DNA from: Candidatus Kapaibacterium sp.
GTDB taxonomy: Bacteria; Bacteroidota; Ignavibacteria; Kapaibacteriales; UBA2268
Length of the DNA: 51,567 bases
Assembly (NCBI GenBank): GCA_937927515.1
Contig: CALBDO010000022.1
Location: 1 to 51,567, forward strand
Direction: 5' to 3'
Shown: positions 12,098 through 49,109 of the stretch, piece by piece
How the letters are laid out: each line of letters starts with the position of its first letter
Numbering within the stretch: position 1 is the first letter of the stretch
Position numbers and translations under genes: made by a program
The notes under the pieces: model-generated
Database searches by the model: none
What the model saw: only the letters and a program-made list of their open reading frames with translations
What the model was told of the DNA's origin: nothing

Positions 12098-13538
12098 AAA
12101 AAGTGTTGTTGGCAGAAAAGCATACACACTGCCAAAAGCCAAATTAGAAGAATATTCGACACGAAAATTACTTCCAGAAAAATACCATCGCAAGCGAGAG
12201 CTAAACTTGCCTGAACTGAGCGAAGTTGAAGTAGCACGCCATTTCGTAAAATTATCAAAACTCAATTATTGCATCGAAGACAATGTGTATCCGCTCGGCT
12301 CTTGCACAATGAAATACAATCCAAAGGTCAACGAAAAAATCGCTTCTTTCGATGGTTTTGCAAACTTACATCCTCATCTCGATGATGAGGACTGCCAAGG
12401 CGCTCTACAGTTAATGTACGAACTAGGCGAAGCATTGAAAAAAATCACTGGATTCACTGGAATTACACTACAACCAGCCTCTGGCTCCCAAGGCGAGTTG
12501 ACTGGCTTACTTCTTATACGCGCCTATCACCTCGACCGGGGCGATACCAAAAGAAGAAAAATCTTGATACCGGATTCTGCACATGGAACAAACCCAGCCT
12601 CATCTACTATTGCTGGCTTTGAGGTTGTAACTATTAAATCCGATACTGATGGCAGAGTAAATCTCGACGAACTCAAAAAATACTGCGATGAAACCACCGC
12701 TGGTTTCATGCTCACCAACCCCAATACCTGTGGTCTTTTCGAAAAAAATATTCTCGAAATTTCCAAAACAATCCACGATTGTGGCGGATTGATGTATATG
12801 GATGGGGCAAATTTAAATGCTTTACTCGGAGTGGTTTACCCCGTGGATATGGGCTTCGACTGTATGCATTTTAATCTTCACAAGACATTCTCTACACCAC
12901 ATGGGGGCGGAGGCCCTGGCTCTGGTCCCGTTTGTGTAAACGAAAAACTTGAACCCTATCTGCCAATCCCACAAATAACTTTCGATGGAAATAAATATCA
13001 CTTGAACTACGACTTGCCCAAATCTATTGGGAAACTACACGCATTCTTCGGTAATTTCCTGGTCTTCGTTCGTGCTTATGCTTATATCCTTATCAATGGC
13101 ACAGAAGGTTTGAAAAAAGTAAGCCAAACATCAATTGTAAATGCTAATTATCTTTTAAGCAAATTGAAAGAAGCTTACCATCAGCCTTTTAAAGAATACT
13201 GTATGCACGAATTCCTAATTACCGGGGATAATCAGAAGAAATTTGGCGTAACTACAAAGGACATTGCAAAGCGAATACTTGATTTTGGCTTCTATGCTCC
13301 CACAATCTACTTCCCATTAATTGTACACGAGGCAATGCTTGTCGAACCAACAGAAACCGAAACAAAGGAACGCTTGGACGACTTTGCAAGCATTCTTCTT
13401 CAAATAGCAAAAGAAGCCGAAACAAATCCAGAAATCCTTTTAACTGCCCCACATAATACCCCAGTTCGTCGTGTAGACGACGCCCGTGCCGCAAGGTTCG
13501 TTAATGTTAACTATTTTAAAGGGGAAACCAAAGGATAA
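12078..13538 (+). CDS. gcvPB: Glycine dehydrogenase (decarboxylating) subunit 2
   Basis: A 486-residue PLP-dependent subunit of the P-protein of the glycine cleavage system, the two-subunit form. The PLP lysine is K269 in NLHKTFSTPHGGGGPG. SAHGTNPAS and GSCTMKYNP are family motifs. The ATG at 12078 was chosen because the protein then starts at the usual family position; a longer frame to 11985 runs through the rnc coding region. The overlap of 20 nt with rnc implies translational coupling. The partner gcvPA and gcvH/gcvT are not in the window. Confidence 0.95.
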   Translation: MEKLIFEKSVVGRKAYTLPKAKLEEYSTRKLLPEKYHRKRELNLPELSEVEVARHFVKLSKLNYCIEDNVYPLGSCTMKYNPKVNEKIASFDGFANLHPHLDDEDCQGALQLMYELGEALKKITGFTGITLQPASGSQGELTGLLLIRAYHLDRGDTKRRKILIPDSAHGTNPASSTIAGFEVVTIKSDTDGRVNLDELKKYCDETTAGFMLTNPNTCGLFEKNILEISKTIHDCGGLMYMDGANLNALLGVVYPVDMGFDCMHFNLHKTFSTPHGGGGPGSGPVCVNEKLEPYLPIPQITFDGNKYHLNYDLPKSIGKLHAFFGNFLVFVRAYAYILINGTEGLKKVSQTSIVNANYLLSKLKEAYHQPFKEYCMHEFLITGDNQKKFGVTTKDIAKRILDFGFYAPTIYFPLIVHEAMLVEPTETETKERLDDFASILLQIAKEAETNPEILLTAPHNTPVRRVDDARAARFVNVNYFKGETKG

Positions 13539-13567
13539 TCATCCATGAAACATATAAATTTAGTAGC

Positions 13568-13592
13568 AAAGGCGGTCCTAAACCGCCTTTTT
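13568..13592 (+). terminator. Intrinsic terminator after gcvPB
   Basis: The 9-bp stem AAAGGCGGT / ACCGCCTTT with a 5-nt loop runs into TTTTT. It lies 30 nt after the gcvPB stop and before the end of the convergent aconitase gene, so it closes the yceD-fab-rnc-gcvPB transcript. Confidence 0.85.
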
Positions 13593-44563: not shown

Positions 44564-46267
44564 TTAGATTTTGTCTTTTACTGGTAGTCGAATTGTAAAT
44601 GTGGAGCCTTTTCCATAGAGGCTTTCGACCTCGATGGTCCCACCGAAGCTTTTAATGATATTGTAGCTCACGGAGAGCCCCAAGCCAGTTCCTTTTCCGA
44701 CTGGTTTAGTTGTGTAGAATGGAAGAAAAATCTTCTCCATTTGTTCTTTTGTTATACCACAACCAGTGTCTTTTATTGAAATCAAAATGTTGTTGTTTTC
44801 GACTCGGGTGGAGACGATAATCTTTCCTGGTGGAGTTATAGCATCTCTTGCGTTGGTTAAAAGGTTAAGAATAACTTGTTTTAGAGAGTTCGGGTCGACA
44901 AAAACTTTTGGCAGGTTTGGTGCAAGTTTTTTTTCAAGAGTTATGTTCGAGACGTAAAGTTCGTGTTCGAAGAACCCTTCGAGGAGCTCGTTTATAATCT
45001 GATTGACGTCGTGATAGTCGAGTTTCAAATCATCTTTGCGAACGAAAGTCATGAGCTTTCGAGTGATATCGCGAGCTCGGAATGCGCTATTTTGGATATT
45101 GTCCAAGTGAGGTATCAAATCTTCAAAAGAGACGATTTGCCCAAATTTAGGATTAATAAGGTCTTTGATTAATCCAGCTTCGCTTGCGATTATGGCAAGG
45201 GGGTTGTTGATTTCGTGAGCAATACCAGCTGCGAGCTCGCCGACAGTTGCAAGTTTGCTTGCGTGCTCGAGTTGCGAGCGGGCAATATTTTTTTCCATCT
45301 CAGCAATTTCTTTCTCGCGTTCGTATTCGACTATTTTTTTTGCTCGAAGGTAGATAACAAAAAGTAAGAAAATAATAATTAGAGCGGAAAGAACTACGGA
45401 GGTCTTTTGAAATGTCGATACAAACAAAGTTTGGGGGGATTCAGAGGCAACAATCACGCACCAGTCTGTTTGTGCTAACCAGCAATAACCGTAGGGATAT
45501 GTTTTATGGTTAATCTTTGCTGTTGTTATTCCAACTTTTGGGCTCTGAGGAGGGTTGAATGGTGAATTTTCGAGCACCGAACCCAACCTCGGATTTGTTA
45601 GTTGGTATTTTCCCTCTGAGTTAATCAATGTTAGTAGCACGTCGCGGAAGACAGTCGAAGAAAGAAGGAACTCGTAAATCTTTGTTGGTTCGAGTGTTGA
45701 ACGAACAACAAAGAACTTACCGTTTAGGAGAGTCTTTACTGCAATAGTAAAATGTGGAAAATGTCGAAAGCCAAGATAGATATCTGTAATGATATAATTC
45801 TGCTTGTTTTGTAGCAATTTTTGAAACCAAACTTCATTGGAATAGTCAATATTTCGTAGGTTAGAGAATGGACCAGCGTAAAGTTTTTGAACACCCGAAG
45901 AGTCGAAAACTCCAAGGTCGATGAAAGCCTCGCTATCTTTTTGCAAACGCGCAAGGAAGTTTTCAATATTCCTTTCACTTATATCTGTAAAGAACGCTGG
46001 GGTTTCAACGACATTTCTTAGGTTCACCACTCTCTCGCGTAAAAAAAGGTCGAGGGTCTGTGCTTGCGTCTCTGCGATTGATTTTAGATGGAGATTCAAT
46101 CTTTCACGACTAATTTTGTTGTATTCTACTTGGAAGAATAGAATCAAAAGGAATAGTGGTAGGACATAGGTCAGAATCAATCGAACGAGTTGTCTACGAA
46201 ATAATGTTCGATATTTATTTTCATCAATTTCAAAGCCGAGCGATGTTCTTTGTTTGTCCGATTGCAT
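44564..46267 (-). CDS. Cache-type sensor histidine kinase
   Basis: A 567-residue membrane kinase. Two membrane segments (~29-48 and ~291-308) flank a periplasmic double-Cache sensor (FIDLGVFDSSGVQKLYAGPF, VWFQKLLQ, FPHFTIAVKT). The cytoplasmic part has HisKA with phospho-acceptor H351 (GIAHEINNPLA) and an ATPase with N472, DTGCGI (500-505) and GKGTGLGLSV (524-533). Cache domains of this type often sense small carboxylates or amino acids. It is the last gene of a four-gene operon and starts 3 nt after the receiver gene. It probably phosphorylates that receiver and the one fused to the transporter. Confidence 0.92.
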   Translation of the reverse strand: MQSDKQRTSLGFEIDENKYRTLFRRQLVRLILTYVLPLFLLILFFQVEYNKISRERLNLHLKSIAETQAQTLDLFLRERVVNLRNVVETPAFFTDISERNIENFLARLQKDSEAFIDLGVFDSSGVQKLYAGPFSNLRNIDYSNEVWFQKLLQNKQNYIITDIYLGFRHFPHFTIAVKTLLNGKFFVVRSTLEPTKIYEFLLSSTVFRDVLLTLINSEGKYQLTNPRLGSVLENSPFNPPQSPKVGITTAKINHKTYPYGYCWLAQTDWCVIVASESPQTLFVSTFQKTSVVLSALIIIFLLFVIYLRAKKIVEYEREKEIAEMEKNIARSQLEHASKLATVGELAAGIAHEINNPLAIIASEAGLIKDLINPKFGQIVSFEDLIPHLDNIQNSAFRARDITRKLMTFVRKDDLKLDYHDVNQIINELLEGFFEHELYVSNITLEKKLAPNLPKVFVDPNSLKQVILNLLTNARDAITPPGKIIVSTRVENNNILISIKDTGCGITKEQMEKIFLPFYTTKPVGKGTGLGLSVSYNIIKSFGGTIEVESLYGKGSTFTIRLPVKDKI

Positions 46268-46763: not shown

Positions 46764-48533
46764 TTAAAAACCTATTAATGGCCAATAAATAGATATACAT
46801 AATGAATAAACGAAAACACAAGCAATTGCATATGGTATAGCAATTTTAATGAAATCTACTTGGGAGAAGTACCCAGTACTGTATGCAATAATAGTTGGCG
46901 GGCAACCAATCACAAGCCAAACAAAAGATGTGGTAGCAGGCAAAACCATAGTTATGTGTTTGATGCTGAGTCCAAGTGCATCTGAAAGAGGATACATTAT
47001 CGGCAAGCAAAGAGCAGTAGCTGCAGAATTGGACATAAAGCTTGAAATGAAAGACGCAAAAATACCAATTCCAAAATATTGAACTAATTTGCCCTGACCG
47101 ATTAACAGCGGTGCAAATTGGTCTGCAAGCCACTTGCCAGCACCGGTGTCGAGCATAGCAACACCAAGAGAAACGCCAGCGCCAAAAACCAACCAAGCGT
47201 CCCAAGCAAATTTTTCGATTATTGTCTTGAACTTGACGAAACCAAGCCCACAAATTGCAATGATTGCAAAAGCAGCAACTACACTTACGTGCAGATGGGT
47301 TAAATCGCCGATAGACCAAAGTAAAAATGCAATTGCGAAGATAATTGCTACACCTTTTTCCCTACGACTCATCGGTGGTAGCTTTGTAGCTTGTATCTCT
47401 GCGGGTAATTCACTAACTTTTGGGGGGTAAAGCAAGTAGCATATCAACCAAGTTGCTAATGAGACAAAAATTACAATAGGCAAGTGGCATATAAGGAACT
47501 CAAAGAAACCAATATGAATCCCATATTGCCTTTCAAGGAAATCTACAGCAATAGGATTACGACCTCCACCTAATATGGTTCCAAATCCCCCTGCGCTTGC
47601 ACTCAGAGGGATTAATAACGTGAAGAACTTGGAAAAATTATTGCTTGTTTGAGGAGTAATGTTGAGTTTATTAAATACAGGTATCATAGAAAAGAGGAAA
47701 ATGATTGTAATTGTGGCATCGTGAAAAACCGAAGAAAGGACAGAAGAGACAAGGCAGAGAAAAAGAGAAAACGTAATTATCTTTCTGCCGCCCATTTTTA
47801 ATATTCCAAAGAGTATACGATTGGTAAGCCCAACCTCGTTGATGATTACCCCGAACATAATAATCATCATAACGAACATAACGGCTGGGCTTGCGTAGGG
47901 AGACCAAGCTGCATCAGGCTTTTGAATGTTAAACAGTAGTAATCCACCACCAACAAGCAAAGCTGTAACACCTATTGGGATTGCTTCGGTTACCCAGAGC
48001 AAAATTATTGTCATTAGGAATGCTAAGAAGCGGTGTCCTTCTGGGGTTAAACCTGCAGGTGTAGGCAAAGCATAGATTAAAACTCCAATACCGATTGATA
48101 ATGTTAACTGCAAAATAATAGTCTTAAACGATTTGCCTTTTTGGGGCGCCTTTTCGGAAATCAAATACTTGGCTTTGGTTTTTGCTTTGTTCAATACATC
48201 AATCAACCTCTCAATTTCAACTGGCTTTTGCAAATAGTTGAACGCGTCCATCTGTGCCATCTGGACAGCATTTTCTGTATCGCCGAAGCCAGTGAGAATA
48301 ACCACTTGAACCTCTGGTTTCGTAGCTTTTATTCGTTTCAAGACTTCTTCGCCGCTCATATCGGGCATCTTCAGGTCGAGAAGCACAACTTCGATAGTAT
48401 CGTCTTTTGAGATTAGTTTCTCTACGTCCTTTCCAGATGTACGAGTTATAACCTCGAATCCACGCAGTCTGAGTTGTTCGGAGATACTATTAAGAAAAAG
48501 TTCCTCGTCATCAATAATCAGTAATTTGCTCAT
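46764..48533 (-). CDS. Response-regulator receiver fused to an SLC13/DASS-type sodium:anion symporter
   Basis: A 589-residue fusion. Residues 1-~122 are a complete receiver: D8/D9, phospho-acceptor D53 (LLDLKMPDMSG), T81 and K103. A short Lys-rich linker (~116-137) leads into ~12 membrane segments (139-589) with DASS features: TEAIPIGVTALL, ASAGGFGTILGGGRNP, AWDAWLVFGAGVSLG, SNSAATALCLP and the second GCPPTIIAY loop. Such carriers move dicarboxylates, citrate or sulfate with Na+. No frameshift or stop separates the two parts, and both are reading-frame continuous without a nearby ribosome site for an internal start. Phosphorylation of D53 by the operon's kinase could gate transport. Substrate unknown. 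Confidence 0.92.
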   Translation of the reverse strand: MSKLLIIDDEELFLNSISEQLRLRGFEVITRTSGKDVEKLISKDDTIEVVLLDLKMPDMSGEEVLKRIKATKPEVQVVILTGFGDTENAVQMAQMDAFNYLQKPVEIERLIDVLNKAKTKAKYLISEKAPQKGKSFKTIILQLTLSIGIGVLIYALPTPAGLTPEGHRFLAFLMTIILLWVTEAIPIGVTALLVGGGLLLFNIQKPDAAWSPYASPAVMFVMMIIMFGVIINEVGLTNRILFGILKMGGRKIITFSLFLCLVSSVLSSVFHDATITIIFLFSMIPVFNKLNITPQTSNNFSKFFTLLIPLSASAGGFGTILGGGRNPIAVDFLERQYGIHIGFFEFLICHLPIVIFVSLATWLICYLLYPPKVSELPAEIQATKLPPMSRREKGVAIIFAIAFLLWSIGDLTHLHVSVVAAFAIIAICGLGFVKFKTIIEKFAWDAWLVFGAGVSLGVAMLDTGAGKWLADQFAPLLIGQGKLVQYFGIGIFASFISSFMSNSAATALCLPIMYPLSDALGLSIKHITMVLPATTSFVWLVIGCPPTIIAYSTGYFSQVDFIKIAIPYAIACVFVYSLCISIYWPLIGF

Positions 48534-48545
48534 AATTTGAAATGT

Positions 48546-49109
48546 TTATTTGTTGAACTTTATACATTCATTAAGAATTCGATTTTCAATTTCGTTAATT
48601 AAGTCGGAAGTCCTTAGTATTCCAACTATTTCATTACCTCTTTTCACCAAGACCGAAAGGCACTGCCACATAATGATTTTATGTATCACCATTGGCAATG
48701 TTTCTTCTTCGTCGACACTTTCTGCAATTGGTTGCATTATATCTTCGACTTTCGTTTCCGAGGCAATTTGACATAAATCAACTGATATTCCCGTCCATAA
48801 AGAAAATTTTTCGTACAATGTTTCAATAAAGGAAGAACTTAGGTTCACCCTCGAAAGTTTTTCTACGTCGAACAAATTATTATACTTTGGTTCCAGCCCT
48901 TTAAGAATAGCGAAATGACCAACCTTGCCAATAACTTTGTTATCCTCGTCGAGCACAAGTATTGCACGAAACGGTGGAATGTTTGGTGGAGCATTTTTTA
49001 CTGCTTCGTTTAGTTTAACAATCGCATCCAGCATGGAGAAGCCTTTTTTAATGGTTGGATACTTCTCTATTGGAACCATTATATCCTTTGCTTTCTTTTG
49101 ATAAATCAT
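48546..49109 (-). CDS. CBS-pair protein
   Basis: A 187-residue protein with two CBS motifs (AKDIMVPIEKYPTIKKGFS near the start; VEDIMQPIAESVDEEETLP near 120, then GNEIVGILRTSDLINEIE). CBS pairs often bind adenosine nucleotides and regulate partner proteins, including transporters. It is the first gene of the operon and lies 12 nt before the receiver-transporter fusion. I infer a regulatory role for the carrier or the phosphorelay; a DNA-binding or enzymatic domain is not seen. Confidence 0.85.
   Translation of the reverse strand: MIYQKKAKDIMVPIEKYPTIKKGFSMLDAIVKLNEAVKNAPPNIPPFRAILVLDEDNKVIGKVGHFAILKGLEPKYNNLFDVEKLSRVNLSSSFIETLYEKFSLWTGISVDLCQIASETKVEDIMQPIAESVDEEETLPMVIHKIIMWQCLSVLVKRGNEIVGILRTSDLINEIENRILNECIKFNK

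Follow-up and report, generated by a model that had tools for sequence, protein, structure and literature searches.

Can the receiver domain of a two-component system act directly on an ion-coupled carrier? This question is raised by a gene in a 51,567-nucleotide stretch of Candidatus Kapaibacterium sp. DNA (contig CALBDO010000022.1; the whole stretch is referred to as the window), in which a single open frame of 589 codons encodes one REC-DASS protein of 589 residues. Pfam analysis of the protein gave Response_reg at residues 5–114 (E 3.2e-24) and Na_sulph_symp at residues 140–588 (E 3.4e-45). The PF00072 score was 85.7 bits against a curated cut-off of 30.2, and that of TIGR00785 'dass' was 206.5 against 198.6, so that the two parts qualified as a receiver and as a DASS (SLC13) carrier, respectively. 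These results bore out the initial annotation, which had described an uninterrupted frame joining a receiver to a complete DASS carrier and had placed it at the right coordinates; it gave neither the minus strand nor the operon, and it made no mention of the association with sulfate reduction or of the wider family of such proteins. Among the four Pfam matches there was no DNA-binding output domain, and the carrier stands after the receiver. The protein thus lies outside the class of transcriptional response regulators, with a carrier in place of the DNA-binding output. The features of the locus are listed in Table 1.

Table 1. Features of the REC-DASS locus, in window coordinates
Feature	Coordinates	Strand	Basis
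REC-DASS fusion gene, 589 aa, stop codon at 46764-46766	46764..48533	-	Open frame, both domains, AlphaFold2
Receiver domain, residues 1-114	48192..48533	-	Pfam, residues, 3jte fold match
End of receiver helix 5 and linker, residues 115-139	48117..48191	-	Model helix 107-128; identity 47-58%
DASS/SLC13 carrier, residues 140-589	46767..48116	-	Pfam, TIGR00785, fold matches
HDA, residues 271-273, at the first SNT motif of VcINDY	47715..47723	-	Alignment
GGGRNP loop, residues 322-327	47553..47570	-	Alignment of type A carriers
CBS-domain protein, 187 aa, first gene of the operon	48546..49109	-	Pfam; adjoins the fusion in relatives too
Single-domain response regulator, 163 aa	46271..46762	-	Pfam; clade groups beside fused receivers, 89/91
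Histidine kinase, 567 aa, HisKA, HATPase_c, and dCache-like sensor region	44564..46267	-	Pfam

An AlphaFold2 model of the 589-residue protein, with 46 sequences as the input, had a mean pLDDT of 88.5 and a pTM of 0.78. Residues 1–126 of the model matched the receiver structure 3jte (Z 21.3, rmsd 1.4, 125 residues aligned), and residues 133–589 matched NaDC3 (Z 37.9, rmsd 3.0, 443 aligned), Pho90 (Z 37.4, rmsd 3.0, 444 aligned), and NaS1 (Z 33.9, rmsd 3.5, 445 aligned), so that the DASS fold spanned the whole carrier part of the predicted structure. The receiver was located at the N terminus, which is the place of the SPX domain in Pho90; the N-terminal end of DASS family carriers is cytoplasmic. 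When the protein was compared with those of three genus-mates, the receiver showed 79–84% and the carrier 75–86% identity, and the linker showed 47–58%, residues 121–139 being less conserved than any other stretch. The dS value was 3.9 in one of nine comparisons and was saturated or without an estimate in the other eight, and no ratio was derived from these values. The same join recurred in 10 of the 54 family genomes, which ruled out an assembly artefact or an origin by chance.

Fusions with two kinds of carrier were found, type A, as in the window, and type B. The window receiver had each of the residues D8, D9, D53, T81, and K103, just as initially annotated, and all five were present in 8/8 type A and 28/28 type B receivers, that is, in 36/36 fused receivers. 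This ruled out a degenerate pseudo-receiver. The five residues were also intact in 10/10 free regulators of Kapabacteria and in 14/15 of those encoded downstream of type B carriers.

In the sample of 54 family genomes, the fusion was linked to sulfate reduction genes. All ten fusion-bearing genomes (G000–G003, G009, G011, G018, G022, G749, and G764) carried dsrA; G011 had a type B fusion only, and G009 had a clean type B copy and a partly masked type A copy. The fusion was found in 0/40 dsrA-negative family genomes, and four family genomes (G024, G029, G765, and G766) had dsrA without it (Fisher 4e-8 for the association in the 54 family genomes, with kinship ignored). The results for aprA in the 60-genome set agreed, with nine genomes over the cut-off in addition to G011, in which the gene was in two pieces. 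Both dsrA and aprA were present in the genome of the window, where a single region of contig C6 contained sat, aprB, aprA, qmoC, dsrA with a neighboring gene that resembles it, as dsrB would, and dsrC, together with DsrK and DsrM matches under their cut-offs. A 583-residue NAD(P)-binding protein encoded between the dsr genes and dsrC (L170:8382-10133) occupies the place expected for DsrL. DsrD, considered as a marker of the reductive direction, was found in 0/60 genomes, and likewise in no control genome; the search thus had no positive control and gave no information on direction. A published MAG, that of Candidatus Thermonerobacter thiotrophicus, is a predicted sulfate reducer (PMC6338057). 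The REC-DASS operon of this MAG (L042) is located close to a contig end.

One genome of the same genus (G004) had no dsrA, and its carrier, 59% identical, had no receiver. In a quick carrier tree the G004 carrier fell inside the fused clade, on a long branch that leaves its placement unsure, and it has therefore probably lost its receiver; tblastn detected no receiver remnant upstream. This locus (L038:8457-9860) is a candidate for the joint loss of control and of sulfate reduction.

Type B REC-DASS proteins consist of approximately 690 residues, of which about 80 form an insert that follows the first membrane helix, and the carrier showed 27–28% identity with that of the window over the matched part. 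In Kapabacteria they occurred in G009 and G011. In the class of Desulfatitalea alkaliphila, type B fusions were present in at least 22 of 291 genomes, a lower bound, since three candidates were scored per genome among the matches listed. Twenty genomes gave a full-length match in a stop-free frame, and two more (G523 and G521) had both domains in one frame in an ORF scan. Type B matches in G682, G462, G460, and G459 were cut by contig ends, and several long frames (approximately 700–730 residues) in the scan of this class matched the carrier part only. Type B was also found in 1 of 198 genomes of a Desulfovibrio's phylum (G949), and no fusion was found in 148 genomes of Thermodesulfovibrio's phylum at E 1e-100. 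Around the 20 type B loci that had at least 1 kb on both sides, in stretches that were short, a kinase gene was found within 1.5 kb in 16, a free regulator in 13, and a CBS gene in 8.

The nearest relatives of the window's carrier are unfused DASS proteins, chiefly of Desulfobacterota. A scan of the genome collection for type A carriers with two peptide patterns, which misses carriers without those peptides, gave 54 loci. Eight of them were type A fusions (L041–L047 and L050, the L045 receiver being partly masked), all from organisms named Kapabacteria/Kapaibacterium, Ignavibacteria, or Bacteroidetes/Chlorobi group. In the stretches examined, none of the other 46 had a type A carrier joined to a receiver, including the five whose carrier frame had first been lost or cut and was read again (L059, L087, L088, L091, and L092). 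These 46 loci were named as Desulfobacterota groups (32), Nitrospirota (5), Rhodocyclaceae/Sulfuritalea (5), unspecified Proteobacteria (2), an uncultured bacterium (1), and a distant WOR-3 match (1). In the quick carrier tree, the fused carriers, the G004 carrier, and 39 unfused carriers grouped together with an SH-aLRT of 97. By this grouping, and by the dsrA and aprA of its own genome, the window carrier belongs to a carrier clade of sulfate reducers.

Signalling genes were frequent around the unfused members of this clade. Among the 43 unfused type A carriers with at least 1 kb on each side, a set that includes related genes and several per genome, 26 had a receiver protein of fewer than 240 residues and 22 a CBS protein within 1.5 kb, and 35 had one or more of the signalling genes sought, versus 0/29 control DASS genes from the phylum of the window. 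No signalling neighbors were found for the five Rhodocyclaceae/Sulfuritalea carriers, and a CBS gene was the sole signalling neighbor of four carriers of the Nitrospirota branch, which indicated that a receiver is not required for the carrier to work. A second, unfused DASS carrier is encoded in the genome of the window itself (contig C2, L172:1-2066), and starts beside the gene of a 178-residue protein similar to the CBS proteins encoded in the carrier operons (the Pfam CBS match being that of a relative in L037).

The initial annotation had read the carrier loops as GGGRNP and, at residues 544–547, CPPT, and had supposed from them an unusual ion or substrate site. Alignment with VcINDY confirmed both readings and revealed a further change that had been overlooked: the first SNT motif of VcINDY aligned with HDA in the window protein, the second being SNS. 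HDA was present in 9/9 fused and 52/52 unfused type A carriers, and GGGRNP in 9/9 and 42/52, respectively; the second loop was CPPT in 4/9 and CPPS in 5/9 fused carriers, and CPPT in 51/52 unfused ones. Because unfused carriers have HDA, GGGRNP, and CPPT, the loops mark the whole carrier clade; they were rejected as a hallmark of the fusion, and the unusual site supposed from them is not tied to it. The window carrier is outside the VcINDY-like subgroup with two SNT motifs, and it was not filed there because it has HDA at the first position and SNS at the second. Since the first SNT is replaced, the substrate is not readable from the sequence.

The gene order of CBS, REC, and DASS around unfused carriers matches that of the fusion, and we therefore first supposed that an upstream regulator had fused in place with a type A carrier. 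The tree of 142 receivers placed all 36 fused receivers in one clade (100/96), inside which eight type A receivers joined two type B receivers of Kapabacteria (100/92). Grouping the type A fused receivers with the regulators that precede unfused type A carriers was rejected (p-AU 8.7e-6, in a test run after the receiver tree was known), and in-place fusion was discarded. A clade of 25 free regulators adjoined the fused receivers, with a join of 89/91 that was under the program's star; 24 of the 25 came from these operons, 10 from Kapabacteria and 14 from just downstream of type B carriers. The quick carrier tree, with 136 sequences, set types A and B far apart, each with unfused relatives of its own, and a constraint of all fused carriers as one group was rejected (p-AU 1.2e-7). 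As the fused receivers form one clade and the carriers do not, one receiver seems to have moved between two carriers. The simplest history would be a single fusion of a type B carrier with a receiver, with the receiver later passed on, in Kapabacteria, to a type A carrier; this direction is suggested by the wider range of type B, and no root was inferred. The receiver tree left out same-genome duplicates (L041, L042, L043, L045, L047, L050, L071, L080, and L138), receivers with fewer than 95 matched residues or with 60 bits or less, sequences with masked letters (G009 C7), identical sequences, and L155 (G564). The carrier tree left out the same loci, carriers with fewer than 330 matched residues, and heavily masked rows.

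In the window, the operon runs in the minus direction from the CBS protein through REC-DASS and the single-domain regulator to the dCache-like histidine kinase, with intergenic gaps of 12, 1, and 3 bp. The dCache_1 match of the kinase scored 39.1 bits, under its cut-off of 45. Further genes were noted around related loci. TauE/SafE-type (sulfite exporter family) genes are located near the REC-DASS operon in two relatives (L034:6269-7300; L035:2581-3627 and 12526-13587; one copy from the Pfam check). A protein of approximately 850–890 residues with PPDK_N and PEP-utilizer domains is encoded a few kb or less from the DASS gene in seven genomes (L034:3541-6207, L035:3677-6307, L044:9827-12469, L048:1785-4379, L051:1943-4371 in two frames, L064:7709-10327, and L093:1630-4176); the L034 and L035 copies were put to Pfam and match by construction. 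Clusters of this kind also contain receivers joined to CBS domains (L070:1690-2622, L165:3206-4108, L166:3207-4118, L168:525-1445, and others; Pfam on L070), which made up 11 rows of the receiver tree.

The initial annotation had proposed the carrier as the direct output of the receiver, and the comparative evidence supports this proposal in part: the fusion is conserved, the five residues are intact in 36/36 fused receivers, a kinase is encoded in the operon, and the receiver is found on two carriers. We consider it somewhat better than an even chance that this protein is a response regulator with a secondary anion carrier as its output, in a predicted sulfate reducer of the Kapabacteria type, and that the carrier is gated by phosphorylation of the receiver. 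The neighboring kinase would respond to an external ligand, which may be sulfate, and would phosphorylate D53 of the fused receiver as well as the free single-domain regulator. The surface through which the receiver contacts either the carrier, on its cytoplasmic side, or the partner receiver in a carrier dimer would change on phosphorylation, and within seconds this change would directly raise or lower the rate of transport or the limit of accumulation; a second, internal input may come from the CBS protein. The genomic association and the published view of such clusters make sulfate (or sulfite, thiosulfate, or a related oxyanion) the most likely substrate. The fusion suggests control at the carrier, instead of or beside the promoters. 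Against gating we counted the four dsrA-positive family genomes without the fusion, the Rhodocyclaceae/Sulfuritalea and Nitrospirota-branch carriers with no signalling neighbors found or with CBS alone, the free regulator of the operon, which could carry the output, the replaced first SNT motif, and a report that, on the orthologous contig, whose gene 7 is likely the fusion, transcription of a predicted sulfate transporter also follows sulfur metabolism (PMC6338057).

The evidence from the operon also bears on other roles for the fused receiver. The carrier could be a co-sensor, or transceptor, whose substrate-bound state alters the phosphorylation or dephosphorylation of the receiver and thereby the kinase and the free regulator, with the latter as the output. 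The free regulator is encoded directly after the fusion, its clade neighbors the fused receivers, and transporter-linked kinases of the SLC5/STAC kind exist (PMC9100948). However, the kinase has an extracytoplasmic dCache-like sensor region of its own, and the free regulator is also without an output domain, so that something else must act; we regard this role as unlikely. The two receivers from neighboring clades in one operon would also suit a fused receiver that serves as a phosphate sink, or as a docking tether for the kinase and the free regulator, and leaves transport unaffected. Joining to a carrier would be needless for a sink, yet the same receiver clade is found on two different carriers, and the probable loss of the fusion in G004, albeit on a long branch, coincides with the absence of dsrA; such a role appears distinctly improbable.

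In the Desulfosarcina cluster, the regulators are called WalR type and are said to control the formation of the DASS carriers, and a figure legend draws an interaction with promoters (PMC11887813). If the same held here, the regulators would act on promoters and the fusion would be incidental, and two long receiver proteins (L066, 477 residues; L072, 491 residues) would accord with this. Nevertheless, the three free regulators put to Pfam had the receiver domain alone, the free ones in the tree had 122–233 residues, the fusion confines its receiver to the membrane, and the Desulfosarcina carriers themselves are reported as constitutively formed (PMC11887813). We therefore give very little credence to purely transcriptional control.

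The rate of sulfate reduction depends strongly on its first step, the uptake of sulfate (PMC5840216). Sulfate reducers switch between uptake of low and of high affinity, through carriers about which little is known (PMC6492693). A carrier-bound receiver would offer a direct, testable handle on the fast control of this step, and sulfate uptake may, if gating is true, be adjusted at the protein itself and not only by gene expression. With slightly better than even confidence, we propose these proteins as the founding class of response regulators with an ion-coupled carrier output, in which phosphorylation would gate sulfate uptake and the receiver would be a portable module. This would be a new kind of output for two-component signalling.

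Known systems share parts of this arrangement. LacS of Streptococcus thermophilus is a secondary carrier in which phosphorylation of a fused domain changes transport; that domain is a C-terminal PTS IIA phosphorylated by HPr, and not a receiver. No receiver-carrier fusion was described among the titles and abstract openings listed by searches of an open-licence PMC library for such fusions and for the control of sulfate carriers; an earlier listing may exist in domain-architecture databases or in subscription reviews of response-regulator output domains. In the SLC5/STAC sensor kinases such as CbrA, a solute symporter domain is likewise joined to a two-component protein, but the symporter is on the sensor kinase, that is, on the input side, and belongs to SLC5 rather than SLC13 (PMC9100948). 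The DASS groups Ci and Cii are, like the carriers described here, putative sulfate carriers of sulfate reducers, and group Cii ranges from 474 to 691 residues, the upper end of which would fit type B fusions by length alone (PMC5840216); a term search of that text gave no 'receiver', 'response regulator', 'fused', or 'CBS'. The Desulfobacteraceae clusters, too, belong to sulfate reducers and bring DASS carriers together with CBS and two-component proteins, whereas the passages on these clusters describe control of gene expression and do not mention a receiver-carrier fusion (PMC11887813). A precedent for such control is given by yeast Pho90 and Pho87, DASS family carriers with an N-terminal regulatory domain, SPX, which restrains their flux (PMC7381174). 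Unlike the fusion, these carriers are eukaryotic and transport phosphate, and their domain is SPX, linked to inositol pyrophosphates, and not a receiver phosphorylated by a kinase (PMC7381174). If gating is true, REC-DASS would be a bacterial counterpart of the SPX-controlled Pho90.
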